Part shown: piece after piece, positions 20,047-21,668 of the stretch
Layout of the letters: the number at the start of each line of letters is the position of its first letter
Numbering within the stretch: the stretch's first letter is position 1
DNA from: an uncultured Pelagibacteraceae bacterium
Lineage (GTDB): Bacteria > Pseudomonadota > Alphaproteobacteria > Pelagibacterales > Pelagibacteraceae
DNA: 64,000 bases
Direction: 5' to 3'
Assembly (NCBI GenBank): GCA_902515185.1
Contig: CABXTN010000003.1
Coordinates: 1 to 64,000, forward strand
Made by a program: the position numbers and the translations under genes
The notes under the pieces: model-generated
What the model was told of the DNA's origin: nothing
The model's database searches: none
Seen by the model: only the letters and a program-made list of their open reading frames with translations

Positions 20047-20976
20047 ATGAATATTTTAGGATTAGGAAACGCAATTGTAGACGTAATTTGTAAAGTTGAT
20101 GAAAATTTTATTAAAGAAAATGGTTTAACAAAAAGTACTATGAAACTTATTTTTGACGAAGCAGAATTTAAAAATCTTTTATCTAATCTTAAAATTGAAA
20201 AAACAGTATCTGGGGGATCTGTTGCAAACTCTATTGTTGGTTTATCTCAACTTGGAAGTAAAGTTGGATTTATAGGAAAAGTTTGTGACGATAATTTAGG
20301 TACTAAATATGAAGAAGGTCTTAAGTCTGAAAATGTAAAATATTTTTACTCCAAAAAAAAAGAGGAGCTTCCTACTGGAACTTGTTTAATTTTAATAACA
20401 CCTGATTCTGAAAGAACAATGTGTACCTTTCTTGGAACAGCTGGTAAAATTAATGAAAGCGATGTAAGCGCAGACGCTGTGAAAAAAAGTGAAATATTAC
20501 TTTTAGAGGGTTATCTTTGGGATGAAGGTGACCCAAAAAAAGCTTTTGATAAAGCAATTAATAATGCAAATAAAGTTGCAATGTCTTTATCTGATCAATT
20601 TTGTGTCGATAGACATAAAACACACTTTCTTAAATTAGTTAAAGAAAAACTTGATATTACTTTTGCAAACGAACAGGAAATGATTTCACTTATAGATGCT
20701 AAAGATTTTAATGATGTAATAACTTTTGCAAAACAAATTAATAAATTAATTGTTGTTACCAGAGGAGAAAAGGGTGCGGTAGCAATAAATGGAAGTGAAG
20801 TGATCGAATGTGATGTTAAAAAAAATCTTAAAATTGTAGACCTGACTGGTGCTGGCGATTTATTTGCAGCAGGTTTCTTACACGGTCATATTAATAATTT
20901 ATCTTTAAAACAATGTTTAGAAAAAGGAACTGAAATGTCTTCAAAGATTATCCAACAAATAGGGGCTAGATTATAA
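20047..20976 (+). CDS. PfkB-family sugar/adenosine kinase
   Basis: GLGNAIVDVICKV, GGSVANSI, DLTGAGDLFAAGFL. Confidence 0.9.
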   Translation: MNILGLGNAIVDVICKVDENFIKENGLTKSTMKLIFDEAEFKNLLSNLKIEKTVSGGSVANSIVGLSQLGSKVGFIGKVCDDNLGTKYEEGLKSENVKYFYSKKKEELPTGTCLILITPDSERTMCTFLGTAGKINESDVSADAVKKSEILLLEGYLWDEGDPKKAFDKAINNANKVAMSLSDQFCVDRHKTHFLKLVKEKLDITFANEQEMISLIDAKDFNDVITFAKQINKLIVVTRGEKGAVAINGSEVIECDVKKNLKIVDLTGAGDLFAAGFLHGHINNLSLKQCLEKGTEMSSKIIQQIGARL

Positions 20977-20978
20977 TT

Positions 20979-21086
20979 TTATTTTTTTTTTCTTTCAAAA
21001 CTTCCTTTTCCTTTTTTTGGCTTTACAATTTTAGGCTTATAACGTTTCGACATAAGATTTTTAGCAACTAAATTTTTTTTTTTCAT
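20979..21086 (-). CDS. Putative ArfA-like alternative ribosome-rescue peptide (35 aa), absent from ORF track
   Basis: Reverse strand reads MKKKNLVAKNLMSKRYKPKIVKPKKGKGSFERKKK*; KxKKGKGSYxRK is the hallmark C-terminal motif of ArfA. Confidence 0.65.
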   Translation of the reverse strand: MKKKNLVAKNLMSKRYKPKIVKPKKGKGSFERKKK

Positions 21087-21668
21087 TTATATTAAATATC
21101 CATCTTTTGTACTTTTTAAGAATTTATCATCATTAAATTTTTCATTAATTTTTTTTCTTAATCTATAGACATGAGTTTCTACTGTATGAGTTTCTAAATT
21201 TTCAGAATAACCCCATACTTCTTTTTGTAAAATTTCAATTTTCTGTGGATATTTTTGATTTGCTAAATATAATATGATTTCAATTTCTCTTTCTGTTAAT
21301 TTTAAATTCTTTTTTTGATTAGATATGACCCTCGAATTTAAATCTACTTTATAATTTTTTACATTAAAATTTGCTTGAGAATTATATTTTTCCTTAAGTA
21401 AACTAATATTTACTTGGTCAATTAATGTCATAATATTAATAGGAAAATCTTTTAAAATAACAAGATTTTTAATATTTAAATTTGAATCGTTAATATTTTC
21501 TTTTGACAATACTATCGAATTTTTTTGGATCTTATTTTCTTTATATTGTTTAAGTAACTCTTCCTTTGCATCATAGTTAATCACTTCAAATTTAAGGAAG
21601 TCTTTAATTTCAAAAAGAATATTATATAAAGTTTTAAAATTTAATATATTAACTTGTGATTTAAACAT
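21087..21668 (-). CDS. Winged-helix (OmpR/PhoB-type) DNA-binding protein with degenerate receiver-like N-terminus
   Basis: C-terminal LKLTEREIEIILYLA...VWGYSENLETHTVETHVYRLRKKI; N-terminus lacks phospho-acceptor motifs. Confidence 0.8.
   Translation of the reverse strand: MFKSQVNILNFKTLYNILFEIKDFLKFEVINYDAKEELLKQYKENKIQKNSIVLSKENINDSNLNIKNLVILKDFPINIMTLIDQVNISLLKEKYNSQANFNVKNYKVDLNSRVISNQKKNLKLTEREIEIILYLANQKYPQKIEILQKEVWGYSENLETHTVETHVYRLRKKINEKFNDDKFLKSTKDGYLI

Follow-up and report, generated by a model that had tools for sequence, protein, structure and literature searches.

A near-minimal ArfA variant in SAR11 bacteria as a predicted ribosome-rescue factor

Do SAR11 bacteria, which rank among the ocean's most abundant cells, encode the ribosome-rescue factor ArfA? 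The question is raised by an open reading frame (ORF) of 35 codons in the window, by which is meant the whole stretch of 64,000 nucleotides that was analysed, taken from the 1.04 Mb draft assembly of an uncultured Pelagibacteraceae bacterium. The original prediction had placed this ORF between a PfkB kinase and a winged-helix regulator and had likened its product to ArfA, and the translation is exactly the one quoted there (Table 1). An ArfA at this place would be at odds with the published distribution of the factor. When more than 15,000 genomes were surveyed with nucleotide profiles, arfA was scored in 0 of 2,376 Alphaproteobacteria (PMC11633108), and a review confines ArfA to the beta- and gammaproteobacteria (PMC8012679). 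In the open papers searched, no description of ArfA from cells of SAR11 was found.

Table 1. Features of the arfA-like locus in the window
Feature	Coordinates	Strand	Description
arfA-like gene	20979..21086	-	35 codons and a TAA stop; translation MKKKNLVAKNLMSKRYKPKIVKPKKGKGSFERKKK
KKGKGSFERK segment	20988..21017	-	Equivalent of the part of E. coli ArfA that fills the vacant mRNA tunnel (role from PMC5378476)
NLVAKNLMSKRYKPKIV segment	21024..21074	-	Placed over the N-terminal and RF2-contacting region of E. coli ArfA, residues 14-30
Winged-helix (Trans_reg_C) regulator gene	21087..21668	-	Upstream of the arfA-like gene; PF00486
PfkB-family kinase gene	20047..20976	+	Convergent neighbour, outside the function; PF00294

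Judged by its sequence, the peptide belongs to the ArfA protein family, within which it is a variant in size and in gene control. The Pfam ArfA profile (PF03889) matches it with 28.1 bits (E 1.4e-6) against a curated cut-off of 25.5, and a six-frame search of the whole genome with the same profile returned this ORF as the sole match, with 27.3 bits. DUF7230 was a weak second Pfam match of the peptide (12.9 bits), and in NCBIfam no family matched the 35-aa sequence. When a profile of 20 SAR11 peptides was compared with the PDB, significance was reached only by chains of E. coli ArfA (E 4e-6 to 1.2e-5), with the next match at E 0.6; the KKGKGSFERK region aligns with these chains ungapped. A gammaproteobacterial ArfA profile, made from sequences extracted from genomes and including no SAR11 sequence, gave 22.1 to 34.3 bits for all 106 of the 106 distinct SAR11 core peptides, whereas 53,000 shuffles that kept the composition reached 18.1 bits at best. 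Since none of the shuffles reached the lowest real score, Lys-rich composition does not account for the match to ArfA, and a match by composition alone was rejected. Furthermore, comparison of the SAR11 peptides with gammaproteobacterial ArfA at the level of profiles gave a probability of 97.7% over 30 columns, and profile alignment bore out the superposition on E. coli ArfA, without gaps, that had been proposed at the outset. We put the probability that the ORF encodes a near-minimal ArfA working as a ribosome-rescue factor at roughly 85%.

With regard to its conservation, the ORF and its KGKGS motif recur in most Pelagibacteraceae. PF03889 at E<=0.01 has matches in 71 of the 91 genomes of the genus, the window included; three matches in a sister family (G094, G097 and G139 of f2) were judged spurious, because they lie inside long unrelated frames of 366-371 aa and match the profile in its N-terminal part alone. 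Profile A1, built from 20 SAR11 peptides, has matches in 249 of 297 Pelagibacteraceae genomes and in 104 of the 126 high-quality ones, in a sampling of genomes that was even but is no census. Genus g15 accounts for twelve of the 249, all with weak scores, and in the one case read among them (G155) the match is to a peptide of the DUF7230 type encoded at a different locus. The g15 matches are thus probably look-alikes, and about 237 is the safer count of genomes. In the 106 distinct homologues, residues N5, A8, L11, K24, K25, G26, G28, S29 and R32 (window numbering) are invariant, K27 is replaced by R in a single case, and K9, Y16, R/K19 and I/V20 are nearly invariant; the part with the strongest conservation is the tunnel-binding segment. 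Purifying selection on the ORF is clear, with a median dN/dS of about 0.17 (quartiles 0.12-0.24; 1,771 non-independent pairs). None of the three findings that the original prediction had named as counting against it, namely a lack of PF03889 similarity beyond Lys-rich composition, of conservation of KGKGS or the ORF in relatives, or of purifying selection, was obtained, and its ArfA reading is supported.

The conservation in the window genome is not borrowed from an overlapping gene, because the ORF overlaps neither neighbour: the stop codon of the regulator directly abuts its ATG with no gap, and 2 nt separate its own stop codon from where the convergent kinase gene ends. Borrowed conservation was rejected on this ground, the overlaps seen elsewhere being short. 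The ORF is a real gene that was missed by annotation. A Lys-rich ORF arisen by chance, or a basic peptide without relation to ArfA whose composition makes it look similar, could be suspected in an AT-rich genome with Lys-rich proteins and for a product of only 35 aa, but this explanation is extremely improbable in the light of the shuffles and the low dN/dS. It is also opposed by the single match per genome, found at a syntenic position, and by the clean absence of the ORF from the same site in ten Pelagibacter genomes that keep both neighbours. The long A run that follows the start codon is what AAA-Lys codons give.

The gene neighbourhood is widely shared. The regulator is recognised upstream of the ORF in 94 of the 106 homologous loci, overlapping it or at most 1 nt away in 89 of them, and the PfkB gene lies downstream in 92. 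Co-transcription and translational coupling of the regulator and the arfA-like gene are probable. So close an arrangement might also suggest that the peptide is an accessory of the winged-helix regulator and has no part in ribosome rescue. However, the regulator persists without the ORF in the ten Pelagibacter genomes just mentioned, in which PfkB is in place and the regulator ends beside it with no ArfA ORF between the two, and the ORF in turn is retained behind a different upstream gene in two loci (L013 and L020). Together with a similarity that is to ArfA, including the E. coli chains solved on the ribosome, this makes an accessory role very unlikely. On the other side of the ORF, the downstream gene is a different one in L012, L014, L015 and L023.

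The fit to E. coli ArfA (YhdL) bears on what such a peptide might do. Both proteins carry KKGKGS[YF]xRK, and the ungapped region of the SAR11 peptide lies against LMSKRYKPKIVKPKKGKGSFERK. The SAR11 peptide covers residues 14-44 of E. coli ArfA, with 35 aa against about 72; nothing in the 35-aa SAR11 forms corresponds to residues 1-9, the hydrophobic or regulatory C-terminal tail is absent, and the gene neighbourhood differs from that of E. coli arfA. ArfA needs the ribosome and RF2 to be ordered in E. coli, and the free 35-aa form is therefore expected to be disordered. In E. coli, the empty mRNA tunnel holds the C-terminus of ArfA, and RF2 is paired with residues 25-29 and opened by the N-terminal minidomain (PMC5378476). 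The same study found that truncation to Asn47 is tolerated while the loss of residues after Met40 is not, and that the A18T substitution abolishes release (PMC5378476). The last residue of the SAR11 peptide corresponds to residue 44, three short of the tolerated limit, and the peptide is richer in Lys there. In the ungapped alignment Lys9 falls on Ala18, with the invariant Ala8 one residue earlier; Pseudomonas-like ArfA has Ser at the Ala18 position. ArfA and BrfA are each specific for their own RF2 (PMC8012679).

By analogy with E. coli, the mRNA tunnel, vacant once a ribosome is at the end of a truncated mRNA, would receive the basic segment KPKKGKGSFxRK at the C-terminus, and the middle segment would hold RF2 in the A site; RF2 would then hydrolyse the peptidyl-tRNA without a stop codon. 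An ArfA homologue that no longer supports RF2-dependent release, and that has another ribosome-binding role such as filling the empty mRNA channel of idle ribosomes, would likewise be expected to conserve the tunnel-binding segment most strongly, and the N-terminal part, whose E. coli equivalent opens RF2, is short here and altered at the Ala18 position. Nevertheless, the middle region is conserved too, with three invariant positions (N5, A8 and L11) and four that are nearly so, and the SAR11 form has its NPxAxxL arrangement in common with alphaproteobacterial ArfA genes that carry terminator-like non-stop elements of the sort seen in regulated arfA genes, so that a loss of RF2-dependent release appears unlikely. 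RF2-dependent rescue is the preferred reading.

The genome of the window carries the RF2 gene prfB (440.9 bits against a cut-off of 370, with the SPF motif) and the RF1 gene prfA. As for the two other rescue genes that the original prediction had brought up, ssrA and arfB, an alpha-type tmRNA is present (C11:11837-12135), accompanied by SmpB (C1:64806-65225), and ArfB was not detected in Pelagibacterales. ArfB (YaeJ) is an alternative rescue factor with a GGQ hydrolase domain of its own, common in other Alphaproteobacteria such as Caulobacter; the SAR11 peptide itself lacks a GGQ. The search for ArfB relied on NF006718, a GGQ hydrolase domain with a basic tail, at a score of over 100 bits. No ArfB above this cut-off was found among the Pelagibacterales genomes searched, in which the only matches were to the segment shared with RF1 and RF2; the same search was positive in two genomes of other families of the class and in two control genomes. 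For the window genome, the lack of ArfB rests on its relatives, because the assembly is 86.6% complete. The SAR11 ArfA would act beside tmRNA and SmpB in cells without ArfB; if this is true, a second route of rescue has been retained in a streamlined lineage in which ArfB is not detectable.

The control of the gene appears to differ from that of the arfA genes studied so far. E. coli arfA is made from a non-stop mRNA and hence repressed by trans-translation (PMC10107115), and an RNase III site lies within arfA (PMC4131195). In ten gammaproteobacterial arfA ORFs, a strong hairpin follows KGKGS, with z values of -4.7 to -10.3 and a best 50-nt window of -21.6 to -38.5 kcal/mol. Conversely, none of 40 SAR11 loci has a strong hairpin within the ORF: the median best value is -6.9 kcal/mol, with a z of -1.2 although the best of many windows was chosen. 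The studied genes yield a non-stop mRNA through an in-frame hairpin or terminator, whereas the SAR11 gene has no such hairpin and has its own stop codon, just past the tunnel-binding segment. Non-stop control seems to have been dropped in SAR11; such an origin is a regulatory trait of the studied arfA genes that stands outside the definition of the protein family. The peptide would be translated through coupling to the upstream winged-helix gene, and we infer a coupled, unregulated expression in which it is probably produced whether or not trans-translation fails. If this holds true, SAR11 offers a natural near-minimal ArfA without tmRNA-controlled feedback, which would be useful for finding the residues that are needed.

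The gene is not universal in the family. Profile A1 had no match in 48 of the 297 Pelagibacteraceae genomes, 22 of which are of high quality, and about a fifth of the high-quality genomes of the family have no match. ArfB was searched for in 20 genomes without arfA and not found, so that it was rejected as a backup where arfA is absent; DUF7230 as a substitute was not found either in the 15 of these 20 genomes in which it was tested. As the gene can be missing without replacement by ArfB, it is dispensable in some lineages. Near-complete Pelagibacter genomes with neither arfA nor ArfB include G153, G167, G176, G185, G223 and others (L125-L134), and such genomes amount to natural knockouts in which rescue capacity could be compared.

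The suggestion that an ArfA-type factor would be notable in an alphaproteobacterium stands for SAR11, where the profiles place an ArfA variant in a group from which ArfA is reported to be absent; it is not unique, since scattered Alphaproteobacteria and several phages have it as well. If the gene has the function that its sequence points to, published accounts of where ArfA occurs would be in error, tiny genes having been overlooked. Among 387 genomes sampled evenly across the class, the PF03889 cut-off is passed in 9, of which 6 lie outside Pelagibacteraceae. Of these six, L118-L122 read as plausible ArfA, with an altered KGKGS in some of them (KGRKV in L118, KGKGA in L119 and KGKAS in L120), and a further alphaproteobacterial case, L173, came from the search that yielded the gammaproteobacterial genomes. 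The NPxAxxL...KGK[GA][SA]Y arrangement of L120, L121, L122 and L173 is the closest to the SAR11 form, but these proteins have longer tails and their ORFs a strong hairpin, behind which L120, L121 and L122 have a T run; they probably follow the usual non-stop feedback. An in-frame terminator-like hairpin with a T run was observed in L118, L120, L121 and L122, which are apparently new alphaproteobacterial arfA genes under non-stop regulation.

With regard to phages, gp30 of pelagiphage HTVC027P carries NPVAKEVRTPKYKSQIIKPKKGRGSFKR; a SAR11-only profile gives it 53.9 bits, while its 20.2 bits with PF03889 fall under the cut-off. This protein has been named ArfA (PMC12753301); the two passages of that paper in which ArfA is mentioned deal with the phage gene and a reference, and with no host gene. 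Pelagiphage HTVC034P gp63 and ORFs of phages Cr30 and CRP-212 pass the PF03889 cut-off. The phage ArfA-like proteins, at 41-54 bits with the SAR11-only profile, have the same core as the SAR11 peptide, and some of them have N-terminal extensions. A tblastn search of phages with the SAR11 peptide gave no match, possibly owing to the low-complexity filter; with the pelagiphage gp30 as the query, phage matches were obtained. That pelagiphages have an ArfA of their own suggests that ribosome rescue matters in infection. In Caulobacter phage Cr30 (KF301602.1) the ArfA-like ORF (L178:532-696; 27.2 bits with PF03889) is unannotated and overlaps the ends of its neighbours. In Roseobacter phage CRP-212 the ORF (L177:595-732; 33.3 bits) lies within the terminal part of the annotated gene gp38 but in another frame, and either it is an overlapping gene or gp38 is misannotated.

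DUF7230 (PF23876), a family of no known function, has a first half, NPVAKAxRTPxFxxxVV, that is like ArfA, but it lacks KGKGS and is about three residues shorter between the halves. The SAR11 ArfA profile gives 22-28 bits for small DUF7230-matching peptides, against at most 13.5 for shuffles, and a score so far above the shuffles suggests that DUF7230 may be related to ArfA and may act in ribosome rescue. Genus g15 of the Pelagibacteraceae has DUF7230, and no KGKGS-type ArfA was seen there. It is conceivable, as a tentative proposal that we hold to be rather doubtful, that Alphaproteobacteria and their phages have a larger repertoire of tiny peptides that recruit RF2, with ArfA as one member; the SAR11 form would be permanently expressed, and DUF7230 would be a second, undescribed rescue factor that replaced ArfA in g15. 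The small DUF7230-matching peptides MKRNPIAKALRTPKFKKKVIKDKKKYNRKK... and MRNKRNPVAKAVRTPAFKMQVVKDKSKYDRK... have the first half common to alphaproteobacterial ArfA and are without KGKGS; matches to DUF7230 were observed at L183 (G155:C1:922181-922273), in the ZZ1 phage (L180:589-711) and in HTVC115P (L181:589-849).
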